DNA of 64,000 bases from Anoxynatronum buryatiense. GTDB taxonomy: Bacteria > Bacillota > Clostridia > Peptostreptococcales > Tindalliaceae. The notes below the pieces were generated by a model that saw nothing but the letters and a program-made list of their open reading frames with translations, had not been told where the DNA came from and searched no databases. This document shows positions 7,941-56,932 of the stretch, one piece after another. The position numbers were made by a program, and so were the translations under genes. The DNA lies in contig NZ_FXUF01000001.1 in assembly GCF_900182905.1 (NCBI RefSeq), positions 1 through 64,000 of the forward strand. Reading direction: 5' to 3'. Position 1 is the stretch's first letter. Every line of letters begins with the position of its first letter.

Positions 7941-8009
7941 TGTTTTTTCTCCTTCCATTCAAGTAGTCCAACTTAAATCCAGCTGATAATCCTTAGGCTC
8001 TCTTGAGGA

Positions 8010-8627
8010 TTATTTGTCTGGATAATAATCCGTCACAAACTCGTATACACCACGAATAGCCAAACCGTTTATTTCTGAAGGGATTTCACCATCAATTTGC
8101 AATATCACCCTGTCAATACCCGGTAGCGTGATAAGTGAGTTCACCACCATCGCAATGGTTGCTTCCGTATCTTCAATTGATCCCGTCATATTATCAGAAA
8201 AATCACTGGAAAGATTAACTGTTGTTGATCGGCCATCCTGCAGAATGGAGAGAAGTTGTGTTTCTGGGGGAATTGGATTAACCAGCTCACCAACGCCCTG
8301 TTGGTTGATCAATTGTTCAACAACAAAAGCAGCCAATGAACTATTCTCCAACTCCGGTGCGTCTTCGCGAATACTGTATGTATCTGAAAAAATAAAAGGT
8401 TGATCTCGATGTTTTAAGTACAAAACATAGTATACCCTGTCTACTGACTCTTCTTCCATCGAATCTGGCTCAACTTCTTCTGATACATCATTCTCAACTG
8501 TCTGCGGAGGTCCCGCAGGGGATTCTTCAGGCAATGCCCGGCGACACGCTGTCGAAAAAACCAATGCCAGTCCCAACAAAACCAGTAATATATTATTTTT
8601 CAATAAGTTGCTTTGGAGAGAAATCAA
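8010..8627 (-). CDS. GerM-domain lipoprotein
   Basis: The 205-residue product has a lipoprotein signal: a hydrophobic stretch ending in FSTAC, with the Cys as the lipidation site near residue 28. A Glu/Pro-rich linker follows, then a GerM domain (~residues 65-200) with VEQLINQQGVGELVNPIPP, TTVNLSSDF and AIRGVYEFV. GerM domains occur in spore germination and cell-wall proteins, and many non-sporulation lipoproteins carry one too. It probably sits on the outer face of the cytoplasmic membrane. Translation starts at TTG (8627) after GAGGTG. It lies between argS and the DUF523 gene on the same strand. Confidence 0.8.
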   Translation of the reverse strand: MISLQSNLLKNNILLVLLGLALVFSTACRRALPEESPAGPPQTVENDVSEEVEPDSMEEESVDRVYYVLYLKHRDQPFIFSDTYSIREDAPELENSSLAAFVVEQLINQQGVGELVNPIPPETQLLSILQDGRSTTVNLSSDFSDNMTGSIEDTEATIAMVVNSLITLPGIDRVILQIDGEIPSEINGLAIRGVYEFVTDYYPDK

Positions 8628-8681: not shown

Positions 8682-9150
8682 CTACTCATCCAAGTGGGAA
8701 ACTTCATCGATCTGATGTTCATTGAACAACTTGAAATCATGATTTTTAAGAAGTTGTGCACAGACACCGCTGCCCTCTACCAACCGACCTCTAAACTCTC
8801 CGTCGTGAATATAACACAAGCCGCAGCTTGGACTGTTCTCTTTCAGGATCACCACCTGAACATTATGACTTTCTAACATGGCAAGTACCTTTTGTGCACC
8901 AGATAAATATAACTGCGTGACATCAATGCCTTTTGAGTTTTTAATCAATGCCTGACCTGACAATACATCCGCACCTGTTCCTTTTTGAATTTCAGCCGGT
9001 TCACGGGGAATAGGCAGCCCCCCCCATCACCTCCGGACAAAATACCAAAAGGGGATGATCTATGCTTAAAAATTGCAGCCCCGAGCAGTTTGCCGCTGTT
9101 GCATTATAGCGACAGGGAATTCCCATTAGGCATGCACTGATTGCAATCAT
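8682..9150 (-). pseudogene. DUF523-family protein, frameshifted in a G8 tract
   Basis: The first part (from the ATG at 9150, after GGAGGGGAATC) encodes ISACLMGIPCRY and CPEVMGG, and the second part encodes GADVLSGQA, LKENSPSCG and the family C-terminus. They lie in different frames. The break is in a run of eight C on the plus strand (G8 in the gene, 9018-9025). With seven G the reading continues as MGGLPIPREPAEIQKG, exactly the conserved CPExxGGLPxPRxPAEI block of DUF523, giving a normal 155-residue protein. As sequenced, translation stops at 9001. This is either a recent mutation, phase variation, or a homopolymer read error. The function of the family is unknown. Confidence 0.85.
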
Positions 9151-9181
9151 GATTCCCCTCCATTTCCAATGCTTCCACCAA

Positions 9182-11572
9182 TCAACTCTTTTTGAAAGTT
9201 GCAATCGTTACACCAGCGCCACCTTCACCATATTGACCATCACGATATTTTGATACCAACCGATGACCGGACAACATCGTCTGAATGCCCCGTTTCAATA
9301 CTCCCGTTCCAACACCATGAATAATGGTTACTTGTTCTCTCCCGCTTAGATACGCATCGTCCAGAAACTTATCAGCCAGATATAGTGCTTCTTCCAAATC
9401 AGTCCCACGAACATCAATATCCGCCTTGCTTGTTTCTGCTTTACTCTTTATGATTCTCTGGACTCCTTTTTGAATGTGTTGCTGTTTACGGTTTTCTTTC
9501 ACAAGATTGCTTATCGGGAGCGTCATTTTCATCATTCCCATTAAAACCAATGCATTTTCATTGTTACTATCAATAGAAATAATGCTTCCTGTTTGGTTTA
9601 GGGATGGGATTCGCACTTCATCACCTTTTTTAAACGACTTCTCACGACTTTGACTTCTATCATCAGATTCATTTGATAGCAGGAAATCAGGTTCTCCTCC
9701 CTGCACCTCATCCAATTGTTCCCGAATGCGATTTCTGATTTTTTCTGTTTCGCGGCCCAGACTCTGTTGGTGCGCTGCATCTTGTGCTTTTCTCAGTTCA
9801 AGTATCGTCTGATCAACCTCTGCTTTTGTTTTTTTGAGGAGCTGTTGTGCCTCTCTTCGTGCTGCCGCCAGAATCGCCTCTCGCTGTTCTTCCAGTTTGA
9901 ATTTTTGAGCCTTCGCTTGCCCTAAGATTTTTTCAGCATCAATGCGGGCATCAGAAGCCATCTTTAATTCTTTTTCTATTTCTACACGGTTCGTTTCAAT
10001 GGTTTGAAGCACATCTTCAAAGGCAACATTCTCTGTCGTCAATAATTTTCTTGCATTTTCAACGATATGTTCATTTATTCCAAGTTTTTTAGAAATTTCA
10101 AAAGCATTGGATTTTCCCGGTATACCGATTAATAGCCGGTAAGTCGGACTCAGTGTGGCTATATCAAATTCTACACAAGCATTTTCAACACGTTCATTTG
10201 TTAATGCATATTGCTTAAGTTCACTATAGTGAGTGGTCGCAACCACTGTTGCAGAAGCACGTATTAGATGATCAAGAATGGCCATGGCAAGGGCCGCTCC
10301 TTCGTCGGGGTCAGTGCCCGCTCCCAGTTCATCCAATAACACAAGTGATCTTCCTGTAAAATGCTGCAGAATCTCAACAATATTCGTCATATGAGAAGAA
10401 AAAGTGCTTAGACTCTGTTCGATGCTTTGTTCGTCTCCTATGTCGGCAAAAACTTCGTGAAATACTCCCACAGTCGTTCCATAGTCAGCTGGTAAATGCA
10501 GACCACTCTGAGCCATAAGAATGAACAAACCTGCCGTTTTTAAAGCTACGGTTTTACCGCCTGTGTTCGGACCTGTAATAACCAGTGCATTATACTTTTC
10601 ACCAATCAAGATGTTGTTTGGAACCACCTGTTTTAGATCTATCAATGGATGACGTGCGTTTCGAAGATGAATGACTTGATTATCCACCACAGAAGGTTCA
10701 ACGGCTTTCATTTTAACTGAAAGGAGTCCCTTTGCCATCCAGTAGTCCAGAAACTGCAGTTTTTCCTGATTATCGCTCAGTGCCAATGCATGCGAAGCTA
10801 CTTCATCAGTTAGCTCCATTAAAATTCGCTCAACTTCCAGCTCTTCTTTAAGCTTGAGTTCCTTTAGCTGATTGTTTAATTCGACAACCGCCATCGGTTC
10901 AATAAATAATGTTGCTCCACTGGAAGACTGGTCATGCACCAGTCCTGGCACCATATTTCGATACTCGTGCCGAACTGGAATGACATATCTTCCCTGTCGG
11001 ATCGTGACGATAGGATCCTGCAAATATTTTTGTGTTTTGACTGACTGTATCATTTGATTAAGTTTTGATTTAACCGCTTCATTTTTTTGCTGTATTTGTT
11101 TCCTGATTTGGCGCAATAGCAAACTGGCTTGATCAGAAACTTCAGAATCACTTATAATGCATGATGTGATTCGTTCCTCAAGTGCTTTAACTGATTGAAC
11201 TTGAGATACCAGACTATGAATCCTGGACAATTTTTCACGCTGGTCGATGGACTGCATATGTGAACGACATTTTCGTGCCAAAGACAGCTGCCGCGCCACC
11301 ACAAGTAGTTGTCCCGGGTCAAGAGCAGCGCCTATATCAGCTCTGCGTAAAAGCACACTGATATCCTGGAGTCCCGATAAAGGTATGGGGCCTTTCTGCA
11401 TAATCAGTGATTCGGCTTCACTAGTTTCTTGCTGCAATTCTCGAATCCGCAACAGCTCTGTTTCAGGGGTAGTTGATTCTGCAAGCTGCTGTCCTAACGG
11501 AGACTGACATTCCAGTCCAAGCATTTCAATAATTTTATCATACTCGAGCACTCTCAATGTTCGTTGATTCAT
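9182..11572 (-). CDS. mutS2: endonuclease MutS2 (Smr-domain MutS paralogue)
   Basis: A 796-residue MutS2: N-terminal core and clamp regions, an ATPase domain with Walker A GPNTGGKT and Walker B LVLLDELGAGTDPDEG, a coiled coil at ~510-620 rich in Glu/Lys/Arg, and a C-terminal Smr nuclease domain with DVRGTDLEEAL and IIHGVGTGVLKRGIQ. MutS2 lacks the mismatch-recognition domain and acts in recombination suppression and, in Bacillus, in rescue of collided ribosomes. The start is the ATG at 11572 after GGAAAGGACATTCATT; an upstream ATG 42 bases away has no ribosome site. It follows a terminator at 11701, so it has its own transcription unit, possibly including the DUF523 gene. Confidence 0.95.
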   Translation of the reverse strand: MNQRTLRVLEYDKIIEMLGLECQSPLGQQLAESTTPETELLRIRELQQETSEAESLIMQKGPIPLSGLQDISVLLRRADIGAALDPGQLLVVARQLSLARKCRSHMQSIDQREKLSRIHSLVSQVQSVKALEERITSCIISDSEVSDQASLLLRQIRKQIQQKNEAVKSKLNQMIQSVKTQKYLQDPIVTIRQGRYVIPVRHEYRNMVPGLVHDQSSSGATLFIEPMAVVELNNQLKELKLKEELEVERILMELTDEVASHALALSDNQEKLQFLDYWMAKGLLSVKMKAVEPSVVDNQVIHLRNARHPLIDLKQVVPNNILIGEKYNALVITGPNTGGKTVALKTAGLFILMAQSGLHLPADYGTTVGVFHEVFADIGDEQSIEQSLSTFSSHMTNIVEILQHFTGRSLVLLDELGAGTDPDEGAALAMAILDHLIRASATVVATTHYSELKQYALTNERVENACVEFDIATLSPTYRLLIGIPGKSNAFEISKKLGINEHIVENARKLLTTENVAFEDVLQTIETNRVEIEKELKMASDARIDAEKILGQAKAQKFKLEEQREAILAAARREAQQLLKKTKAEVDQTILELRKAQDAAHQQSLGRETEKIRNRIREQLDEVQGGEPDFLLSNESDDRSQSREKSFKKGDEVRIPSLNQTGSIISIDSNNENALVLMGMMKMTLPISNLVKENRKQQHIQKGVQRIIKSKAETSKADIDVRGTDLEEALYLADKFLDDAYLSGREQVTIIHGVGTGVLKRGIQTMLSGHRLVSKYRDGQYGEGGAGVTIATFKKS

Positions 11573-53229: not shown

Positions 53230-54096
53230 TTAAATGAAAAATCGTTTAGTCCAGCGCGAAAACTGTTCTTCTGTTGATTCTGTCATTTTACTTGTCAGCG
53301 GATCATGTTGGTTTAATCCGTGCCTGTCTTCAAAAGTGGGTTGATCTGGTTGATGATAGATTAACCCTGTTATCAGTCCATCTGTCTCCCTCAGTATTCG
53401 AAGTGCTGAATCCACATTATCTGTTTGATGCGCCGGTACTTCTGATACGTTCGTTAAGTTCTCACGAAACCAGCTATATGTGTTTGTTTTGTTGTAAGTG
53501 ATACAGGGACTGAATACCTGTACCAGCGAGAATCCTTTATGTTTAATAGCTTCAGCGATCAGCGATACCAGTTCTTCTTGCTGTGCCGAAAACCCTTGTG
53601 CATAATAAGTGACACCCGCACCCACAGCCAATAATCCTGGTTGTATTGGTTGATCCACTGACCCCGCGGGAGTTGTTTTCGTTTTGAGTCCTGGCAGACT
53701 CACAGGAGATACATGCCCTTTCGTAAGTCCGTATACCTGATTATTCATCACCACATATGTCAAATCAACATTACGGCGAATGGCATGTAATGTGTGTCCG
53801 GCTCCAATGGCAAAGCCATCACCGTCGCCCCCCGCTGCCAAAACTGTCAACTCTCGATTTGCCAGTTTAATGCCTTGAGCAAGTGGCAGGCTGCGACCAT
53901 GAACACTGTGAAACCCATAGGTATTCATATAGCCAGATAAACGTCCTGAACATCCGATACCACTGACAACGACCATCCGCTCTTGAGGGATTTCCAAACT
54001 GGCTGCAGCCAGTTGAATCGCCCGAAGAACTGAAAAGTCGCCACACCCAGGGCACCAGTTCGGCTTAATTCCATTACTATAGTCTTTCATTTCCAT
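53230..54096 (-). CDS. korB: 2-oxoacid:ferredoxin oxidoreductase, beta subunit
   Basis: 288 residues. It has the TPP-binding beta-subunit motifs: NWCPGCGDFSVLRAIQLAA, VSGIGCSGR, AAGGDGDGFAIGAGHTLHAI and NNQVYGLTKGHVSPVS. With KorA it oxidatively decarboxylates 2-oxoglutarate or another 2-oxoacid to the acyl-CoA, reducing ferredoxin. The preferred start is the ATG at 54096 after AAGGATGGTGTTCAG. It overlaps the korA stop by 10 bases. No separate gamma or delta subunit gene is seen here; the gamma part is fused in KorA. Confidence 0.9.
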   Translation of the reverse strand: MEMKDYSNGIKPNWCPGCGDFSVLRAIQLAAASLEIPQERMVVVSGIGCSGRLSGYMNTYGFHSVHGRSLPLAQGIKLANRELTVLAAGGDGDGFAIGAGHTLHAIRRNVDLTYVVMNNQVYGLTKGHVSPVSLPGLKTKTTPAGSVDQPIQPGLLAVGAGVTYYAQGFSAQQEELVSLIAEAIKHKGFSLVQVFSPCITYNKTNTYSWFRENLTNVSEVPAHQTDNVDSALRILRETDGLITGLIYHQPDQPTFEDRHGLNQHDPLTSKMTESTEEQFSRWTKRFFI

Positions 54097-55823
54097 TCTG
54101 AACACCATCCTTCCAGTAAATGGCGCACTTCTTGAACTTGAAATGATTCACCATCATAGCGCGTCATGCTGACAATGTTATTCTGATGATTCAGCTCCTG
54201 ACGCAAAATCAAAGCCAATTGTCCTTGCTGGTTTTGCTCCATCACAATGATCTTTTCGTAATTTGCCAATAATTGTTGGAGCTGCCGTTTCGGTAACGGA
54301 CGTATACGAGAGATTCGGCCAATATCAACAGATAAGTAGGTGTCTTTTACCGCTTGCTGCAACACACCCCATGAAGATCCGCAGGTCAGGCATAACATCT
54401 TTCCATCACGTTGTTCCAAATGAACTGCAGACTGATCTTTAAGAGGTTCCAGTTTCCGCAGGCGTTTATCCATCATTTTCTGACGATTAGCAGGCTGGTC
54501 GGAAGGTCTTCCCCACTTGTTATGTTCAAGACCGGTAACCTGATGAATACCACCAGGCATTCCAGGAAAACTTCGGGGAGAAAGGCCATTTTCAGTCAAG
54601 GCATATCTGGCAAATGGTTCGGTTATCTTGGCAGCTGACAGCTCATCTTCTAACGACATAAGTACACCGCGGTTAATGGCCGCCGGGACGTAATCGAAAG
54701 CCGGAATCGTTTGGGGAGATAAGCTTAAATTCAAATCAGTCATGACGACTACCGGGCATTGAAAAATGTCTGCCAGATTAAATGCTTCTTTGGTAAGTTC
54801 GTAACACTCTTCGATTGTGGAAGGTGTTAAAAGAATCAAGGGGAATTCTCCATGACCAGCATGATAGAGTGCACTGAAATCACTTTGCTCTGTTCGCGTG
54901 GGAAGACCAGTGCTTGGTCCTCCTCTTTGAGCATCAACCACAACAATTGGTGTTTCAGTCATGCCGGCCAGACCAAGTCCTTCCATCATCAACGTCAGAC
55001 CGGGCCCTGAAGTGGCCGTCATGCTTCGCACACCAGCATAGCCCGCACCAATACACATGGTGATTGCAGCTACTTCATCCTCCGTCTGAACCATTAATCC
55101 CCCTTCATCTGGAAACACCCTGCTCATCGTCTCCATTACATCTGAGGCCGGTGTGATGGGATAGGCTGCCATAAAACGACAACCTGCCATCAGTGCACCC
55201 AAGGCGATCGCATCATTCCCCATGAGAATCATCATACTTTCCTGCCTGTGTGGCGCATCTGGCAACGGATCTATTTTTTCCAGTTCCGGGCATGGATCAT
55301 CATAAGCAGCTAACAGTACCTGGAGGTTTTGTTGTATGACTTCATCGCCTTTGGAAAGATATGTTTTTGCAATTGATGACTCCAGTACTTGACGCTGAAT
55401 ACCCAACAATTTTCCCAGATATCCGATGGCGCTTGTATTTTTCATCAGTAACGATCCATGTTTTTTGGCCATCAGTGTCAGCGGAAGTGCAACAGTGTTA
55501 ATATTCTGCGTTAAAGATGCTTCTGGAGTCAATGTTTCATCCATCAGAATAATGCCATTATCCCTCAGTTTGATTTGATTAAAGCTGATCGACTCTTCAT
55601 CAAAAGCAAGTATTATATCGATGACAGACTCCACACATGTCACATGATCATCGCCAATGGTAATGATCATATGGGTATTACCACCTTTAATGCGTGAAGA
55701 GAACTTACGCTCTCCATAAACGTGATACCCGAGACCTGCAAGTGCTCTCATAAGGTTAATGCCTGTACTGGCAACCCCCTCACCTTGAACACCGCCAATT
55801 AGGATGGTTCTTCTCCAACTCAA
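54087..55823 (-). CDS. korA: 2-oxoacid:ferredoxin oxidoreductase, alpha subunit with fused gamma domain
   Basis: 578 residues. The N-terminal gamma domain (~1-185) has GGVQGEGVASTGINLMRALAG, the alpha domain (~205-575) has the YPITPASDVMETMSRV motif, VQTEDEVAAITMCIGAGYAG, SGPGLTLMMEGLGLAGMTE and GGPSTGLPTRTEQSDF, all diagnostic of the PorA/KorA family. It starts at TTG (55823) after GGAAGGAGGAAATGGA. The gene leads a leftward cluster that continues to 47268. A separate ferredoxin-type delta subunit is not in the window. Confidence 0.9.
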   Translation of the reverse strand: MSWRRTILIGGVQGEGVASTGINLMRALAGLGYHVYGERKFSSRIKGGNTHMIITIGDDHVTCVESVIDIILAFDEESISFNQIKLRDNGIILMDETLTPEASLTQNINTVALPLTLMAKKHGSLLMKNTSAIGYLGKLLGIQRQVLESSIAKTYLSKGDEVIQQNLQVLLAAYDDPCPELEKIDPLPDAPHRQESMMILMGNDAIALGALMAGCRFMAAYPITPASDVMETMSRVFPDEGGLMVQTEDEVAAITMCIGAGYAGVRSMTATSGPGLTLMMEGLGLAGMTETPIVVVDAQRGGPSTGLPTRTEQSDFSALYHAGHGEFPLILLTPSTIEECYELTKEAFNLADIFQCPVVVMTDLNLSLSPQTIPAFDYVPAAINRGVLMSLEDELSAAKITEPFARYALTENGLSPRSFPGMPGGIHQVTGLEHNKWGRPSDQPANRQKMMDKRLRKLEPLKDQSAVHLEQRDGKMLCLTCGSSWGVLQQAVKDTYLSVDIGRISRIRPLPKRQLQQLLANYEKIIVMEQNQQGQLALILRQELNHQNNIVSMTRYDGESFQVQEVRHLLEGWCSEWK

Positions 55824-55913
55824 TCCATTTCCTCCTTCCATTTTCATCACGTATTATTCATAGCCAATGGGCAGCAACTCAAACGGATTATCTCTATCTT
55901 AATCATTACAGGC

Positions 55914-56529: not shown

Positions 56530-56814
56530 TCAACGTGACTGCAGTTCGTATATGGAATGGAAAAACAGAAAATGACTGACCGTAAGAACCATCTCCGGTT
56601 TCTTTCCCACCAGCCCCTGGTGAAGGTACACTTGAACGCCGCTTTCTGTATCCATTATGACATAATTTGCTTTTTCATTTGGTTCTGACATCATCACCGA
56701 TGATGTATTGGGAACACCTCAACAACCACTTGCTTTTGGAAGTTGAACGGTCAGCACATTAACCCTGCGCTTCTTAAGGAACTTAATCAGTTTGTCAGTA
56801 AGTACTATTTTCAC
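56530..56814 (-). CDS. probable selenoprotein with a Cys-Sec pair, 94 residues
   Basis: The minus-strand frame from a GTG at 56814 (AAAGGA ten bases upstream) to TGA at 56530 is open for 94 codons except one in-frame TGA (56721-56719), which follows a Cys codon: KASGCU-GVPNTSS. The reading frame continues for 62 codons after it with no stop, and the sequence stays protein-like (NYVIMDTESGVQVYLHQGLV). A perfect hairpin with a GGT loop lies 12 bases after the TGA, where a bacterial SECIS should be. It resembles, from memory, a small CC/C-Sec motif family of unknown function. If the TGA is a stop, only a 31-residue peptide would be made. It has not been annotated by the usual stop-to-stop approach. 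Confidence 0.75.
56688..56706 (-). promoter_or_regulatory. SECIS-like hairpin after the in-frame TGA
   Basis: Minus strand: ACATCATC-GGT-GATGATGT, an eight-pair stem with a GGU loop, starting 12 bases after the TGA codon. The loop is 20 bases from the TGA, within the 16-37 range I recall for bacterial SECIS apical loops, and GGU is the loop sequence seen in the formate dehydrogenase SECIS of Escherichia coli. It would recruit SelB to insert selenocysteine. Confidence 0.75.
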
Positions 56815-56932
56815 TATTAACCAGTCCTTTCCAAAACCACTCAATCGTTCTAATATACTGAACAGAATGGCATCACTCGATTATATCAGCTATAATAAGT
56901 GCATCGGAAGCAACAGTCAAGGAGTGATGGTC

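Follow-up and report, generated by a model that had tools for sequence, protein, structure and literature searches.

The window, by which we mean the whole stretch of 64,000 nucleotides from Anoxynatronum buryatiense analysed here, carries on its minus strand (56533..56814) a frame of 94 codons with a GTG start (56814..56812), a lone in-frame TGA at codon 32 (56721..56719) directly after the cysteine codon TGT and, after a further 62 codons, a terminal TGA (56530..56532). This frame had been described in the original prediction and all of its coordinates were confirmed. Read with selenocysteine (Sec, U) at codon 32, the predicted translation (minus strand, 56814..56533) is VKIVLTDKLIKFLKKRRVNVLTVQLPKASGCUGVPNTSSVMMSEPNEKANYVIMDTESGVQVYLHQGLVGKKPEMVLTVSHFLFFHSIYELQSR, in which Cys31 and Sec32, encoded at 56719..56724, form a vicinal pair and are the sole Cys or Sec residues of the entire protein. 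We assign the frame to a selenoprotein gene on the basis of its orthologues in two same-genus genomes (L058 and L059) and its match to the family NF041239, and judging from these sequence comparisons the gene is almost certainly real, with the UGA of codon 32 read as Sec. The ribosome site predicted ahead of the GTG is found as a Shine–Dalgarno-like AAAGGA at a distance of 10 nt (56825..56830, minus strand), which is a resemblance to the consensus only, and at 56892..56920 on the same strand lies a weak promoter-like pattern, TTGACT-17-TATTAT, that is matched at chance frequency. In the alignment both same-genus orthologues show an ATG start at the position of the GTG. The gene would be missed by ordinary annotation, and gene callers truncate members of its subgroup at the UGA.

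Convergent to the selenoprotein gene is a gene for a bacteriohemerythrin (PF01814; 55971..56429, plus strand), and on its 5′ side an MFS transporter is encoded (PF12832; 58663..59808, minus strand), with a histidine kinase gene on the plus strand between the two. In both same-genus genomes the MFS gene is located immediately 5′ of the selenoprotein gene; the order at the G028 locus is bacteriohemerythrin, selenoprotein and MFS transporter, and the MFS gene is also upstream in G056. Two genes for a 2-oxoacid:ferredoxin oxidoreductase (54087-55850 and 53230-54108, both on the minus strand) adjoin the bacteriohemerythrin gene in the window, an order that is kept in G028. The gene context of the window subgroup gives no clear functional pointer, and the neighbours are not suggestive of Fe–S assembly.

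Starting 12 nt after the TGA is the hairpin ACATCATC-GGT-GATGATGT (56688..56706, minus strand), with an 8-bp stem and a GGU loop 20 nt past the TGA, exactly where a bacterial SECIS (bSECIS) element had been predicted. The published model describes such elements by a loop of 3–9 nt with a G at loop position 1 or 2, a stem of 4–16 bp, a UGA-to-loop distance of 16–37 nt and an MFE of at most −7.5 kcal/mol (PMC13188914). All of these limits hold for the hairpin, although its stem energy of −7.5 kcal/mol is barely at the MFE limit (local fold −9.2 kcal/mol). The window contains 3,223 TGA triplets when both strands are counted, and that of codon 32 is the only one followed at a spacing of 20 by an 8-bp stem with a 3-nt loop beginning with G. 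Among the 24 read-through frames in the window (at least 25 codons before and at least 50 after a TGA) the selenoprotein frame alone shows a SECIS-like hairpin with an energy of −6 kcal/mol or lower. The stability of the hairpin compared with shuffled sequences was unremarkable (z −0.75 and −1.08) and is not used as evidence; the case for a selenoprotein therefore rests on the geometry, on covariation and on the conservation of the protein on both sides of the TGA.

The covariation becomes visible in an alignment of 17 homologues, which contains 19 double-change cells versus 7.5 ± 2.1 in shuffles (0 of 500 shuffles reached this number) and in which 78.9% of the cells are paired. The score of 0.41 in the actual register compares with 0.11–0.27 in slid registers, and the signal is gone on sliding by 1–3 columns. 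Throughout the CU subgroups the hairpin is found at the identical spacing of 20 nt with a loop of GGU or close to it, and the stem sequence is variable (ACATCATC/GATGATGT in the window, GTCGTC/GACGAC in L058, CTTCCTTC/GAAGGAAG in L061 and TTCCATC/GATGGAA in L077), the hairpins of the same-genus orthologues having changed by compensatory substitutions. A search of Rfam gave nothing relevant.

The genes of the selenocysteine machinery are all present in the genome and are clustered on contig C3 within about 6.5 kb, with scores of 600 bits for selA, 390 bits for selB, 73.4 bits for tRNA-Sec (selC) and 390 bits for selD. The selD gene (L054, C3:350937-351857) has an in-frame TGA itself, and SelD is therefore probably a selenoprotein in this organism. 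UGA is read as Sec elsewhere in the genome too, as a HesB-like protein and an MsrA show in-frame TGAs at known Sec positions. The MsrA gene (contig C12, L088:10200-10900, minus strand), which callers would start late, encodes the motif GUFWG and probably represents a Sec-type methionine sulfoxide reductase. The HesB-like selenoprotein with the motif GUAGP (C8:55380, L085:1501-1797, plus strand) is the sole Fe-S_biosyn match in the genome at E values up to 1.

A search of the window protein against NCBIfam gave one meaningful match, NF041239 (‘CC/Se motif family (seleno)protein’), in which residues 1–88 align to positions 1–86 of the 91 of the profile with E 4.5e-9, spanning both sides of the TGA and with the motif in place. 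The score of 36.3 bits (with a Met start; 35.1 and 30.0 in other runs) is below the cut-off of 40. This family is already named and is listed as a predicted selenoprotein family of unknown function, being referred to as ‘hypothetical protein predicted in Moorella thermoacetica’ (PMC13188914, PMC9312934). The genome contains five NF041239 relatives, two with a TGA and two with Cys-Cys above the cut-off and the window protein with its TGA below it, and the four others show the matching CU/UC/CC variation. The window protein shares with the family the full-length profile match across the TGA, the size and the adjacent or near-adjacent Cys/Sec residues at the same place and differs from it in the lower score and in forming its own long-branched clade; we take it as a genuine, though divergent, relative, and its subgroup would be missed by the current NCBI model.

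All 40 aligned relatives match NF041239. The search for homologues with an aligned CC or CU, as had been suggested, revealed CU, UC or CC at this site, and none of the 55 homologous frames that were read out ends at the TGA. The orthologues L058 and L059 are 47–48% identical to the window protein over the full length and keep the TGA as well as the GCUG motif. In the phylogenetic tree the three sequences form a separate, long-branched clade (support 100/99) next to other CU subgroups, and this clade is grouped with members above the NF041239 cut-off (support 96/75). Between L058 and L059 the part after the TGA shows a dN of 0.18 and a dS of 0.50 (comparisons with the window sequence are saturated), and at the sequence level the frame downstream of the TGA is under constraint. 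Scanning genome contigs turned up no relative with the protein alone as query and just the two same-genus MAG records when the alignment of three sequences was used. In a set of 391 genomes from the class, a sample that does not include the two same-genus genomes, the subgroup profile detected beyond the own genome only more distant relatives.

The original prediction had named homologues ending at the TGA, a lack of conserved sequence behind it and a genome devoid of Sec machinery as grounds for giving it up, and what we found was the reverse in each case: the machinery is encoded, homologues carry CU, UC or CC at the site, the sequence after the TGA is conserved among them and the hairpin covaries, all of which supports a selenoprotein with a Cys–Sec pair.

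Of 297 genomes sampled across the order, 92 encode members of the NF041239 family, and many of these members contain one TGA. selA is present in 85 of these 92 genomes versus 122 of the 205 genomes without a member, for which the Fisher p value of 1.7e-9 is optimistic as related genomes are not independent. From the seven member-bearing genomes without selA the near-complete G008 and G133 list, as expected, only stop-free members; members with a TGA occur in G049, G058 and G087, whose assemblies are incomplete, and G138 and G292 have weak, unlisted family matches. A Cys-Cys paralogue in the own genome (L013, C2:243955-244218, plus strand), in which Cys-Cys is found at the position of the Cys–Sec pair of the window protein, has a C-terminal CLC resembling the CxC of the A-type carriers discussed below. 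In L013 a SECIS-like hairpin, CTGCCTTC-TGT-CAAGGCGG, persists in worn form with the customary spacing. The UGA has been kept in L084, the counterpart from the same genus, together with the hairpin CTGCCTTC-GGT-GAAGACAG, and the two sequences make a change from Sec to Cys probable.

The gene contexts of other subgroups include sulfur, selenium, arsenic and heavy-metal genes at single loci, none of which is found beside the window subgroup. At L101 two tandem Cys-Cys members (7971-8270 and 9112-9414, minus strand) are located near genes for a VTT-domain protein and a methyltransferase whose DAGCC N-terminus makes it similar to the arsenite methyltransferase ArsM. At L093 (263-4529) a UC-type member directly follows an mtnA homologue and precedes a gene for an ArsR/SmtB regulator; yedF, a gene of selenium metabolism, is located nearby.

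As the family profile gave no IscA match among PDB sequences and only weak unrelated matches, a comparison on the level of the fold was needed. The AF2 model calculated from 40 relatives has a mean pLDDT of 89.3 and a pTM of 0.79, and within the core the Cys–Sec loop is modelled with the lowest confidence (block pLDDT 73). Using Foldseek against solved structures, the best ten matches were of the IscA/SufA/HesB type (top hit 1r94, E 5.9e-4), and the eleventh, which had a Foldseek probability of 0.13, was unrelated. A second structural aligner likewise placed IscA-fold entries in the top ten, including E. coli IscA (1s98) with a Z of 8.9 and 3.2 Å over 88 residues, followed by an unrelated entry with a Z of 2.6. 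Independently of the model, 10 of the 40 family members weakly match Pfam Fe-S_biosyn or IscA_HesB_Se (best E 5.6e-5 and 9.6e-5), and the family profile aligns over its full length to a HesB-like profile of the same order with 96.5% probability and E 8.9e-10. From the model and the profile evidence the window protein very probably has the fold of A-type carriers of the IscA/SufA/HesB type. The link of NF041239 to this fold is new here, as no paper making it was found in an incomplete literature search. For the window protein itself Pfam gave no Fe-S_biosyn match, and DNAJ_related and CCG were rejected as its identity since these are weak chance matches.

In the profile alignment Cys31 of the window protein corresponds to the Sec of the HesB-like proteins, which in turn corresponds to the Cys of the GCSG loop in solved A-type carriers, so that the window Sec follows the classical ligand by one residue. 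Other subgroups (KGUCHSG, SGUAG) have their Sec at the first position instead. With its three conserved cysteines, IscA is an iron-binding protein that is also able to host a cluster (PMC4788688). With the A-type carriers IscA, SufA and ErpA (PF01521) the window protein shares the fold and one conserved Cys position, but it lacks the C-terminal CxC and a direct Pfam match, is only about 10% identical in the structural alignment and has its Sec one residue after the first Cys. The carrier set of three cysteines, made up of the GCSG-loop Cys and the C-terminal pair, is not found, and as only Cys31 and Sec32 are present we do not file the protein as an A-type carrier. The HesB-like selenoproteins (TIGR01911/IscA_HesB_Se NF038090) have the same predicted fold with Sec in the same loop and are represented in the own genome by L085. 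In these, however, Sec replaces the conserved carrier Cys (GUAGP/GUGGP) and one Cys is found near the C-terminus, whereas in the window protein Cys is kept at the carrier position, Sec follows and a C-terminal Cys is absent. The TIGR01911 profile does not match the window protein, which shows CUGVP, with Sec one residue later, in place of UxGP.

From the sequence comparisons, SelB and tRNA-Sec almost certainly decode the UGA of codon 32 as selenocysteine, guided by the hairpin just 3′ of it, giving the 94-residue protein. According to the alignments Cys31 occupies the position of the conserved first cysteine of the fold with Sec32 next to it, and as the C-terminal CxC of the carriers is absent, Cys31–Sec32 is the sole thiol/selenol pair. 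In the mechanism that we propose, this pair would be displayed on the loop where A-type carriers take iron or a cluster, and a dimer would probably double it to two thiolates and two selenolates. Such a pair would hold a soft metal ion or a small Fe–S cluster and may close to a selenylsulfide, thereby releasing the metal or cluster; with the three-cysteine ligand set missing, classical cluster carriage is unlikely. As a whole, an IscA-fold selenoprotein with a Cys–Sec pair that binds a soft metal or cluster, or serves as a redox switch, is the best explanation and a likely one. The metal or cluster mechanism of Cys31–Sec32 taken by itself is an inferred function that we put forward tentatively, and it is rather doubtful that in this IscA-fold lineage, with its Sec beside the carrier Cys, the dimer is a natural selenolate-bound metal or Fe–S site.

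The same selenoprotein could instead act purely in thiol/selenol redox chemistry, with Cys31–Sec32 changing between selenol and selenylsulfide and handing electrons to a partner without any metal. Mammalian thioredoxin reductase ends in the redox motif GCUG, and the same tetrapeptide Gly-Cys-Sec-Gly is present in the window protein and both orthologues; genes for a TrxB-like protein and PDO near L095 and for CoA-disulfide reductase, rhodanese and TusA near L097 point in the same direction. However, the resemblance to thioredoxin reductase covers four residues only, GCUG is internal instead of C-terminal, the flavin domain is absent, the fold is that of a metal or cluster carrier and not of a redoxin, and the neighbours in the window are not redox partners, making this reading somewhat unlikely. 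Vicinal cysteines are also used in known detoxification proteins in order to trap metals and metalloids, and a defence in which the pair would bind Hg(II), As(III) or similar is consistent with the Cys-Cys relatives of G130 (L101) beside the ArsM-like methyltransferase, with the UC relative L093 by the ArsR/SmtB regulator, with a Cd-type P-ATPase in the vicinity of L091, which is a Cys-Cys relative, and with the metal binding suspected for other CU selenoproteins (PMC13188914). These contexts belong to other subgroups and were seen case by case, whereas the window subgroup is located between bacteriohemerythrin and MFS genes, and the assignment of ArsM comes from a look at the N-terminus only, Pfam stating a methyltransferase; we regard such a role as improbable.

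Finally, the TGA might be an ordinary stop in a decayed gene for an ancestral Cys-Cys protein, leaving a peptide of only 31 residues, as the existence of the Cys-Cys relatives L012 and L013 would allow. Yet the TGA and the sequence behind it are kept in two orthologues that have diverged by about 50%, nearly all members of the clade possess the TGA, and the constraint between L058 and L059, the covarying hairpin and the Sec machinery all argue against decay, which is thus extremely improbable. A chance or decayed frame was rejected by the conservation, the covariation and a geometry that is unique in the window.

In summary, an uncharacterised family of predicted selenoproteins probably has the fold of iron–sulfur carriers. 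Across its members Sec is found at either of two adjacent positions of one loop, with the Cys-Cys forms representing natural controls. The fold together with this two-position pattern turns ‘function unknown’ into specific tests, namely for metal or cluster binding and for the formation of a selenylsulfide.
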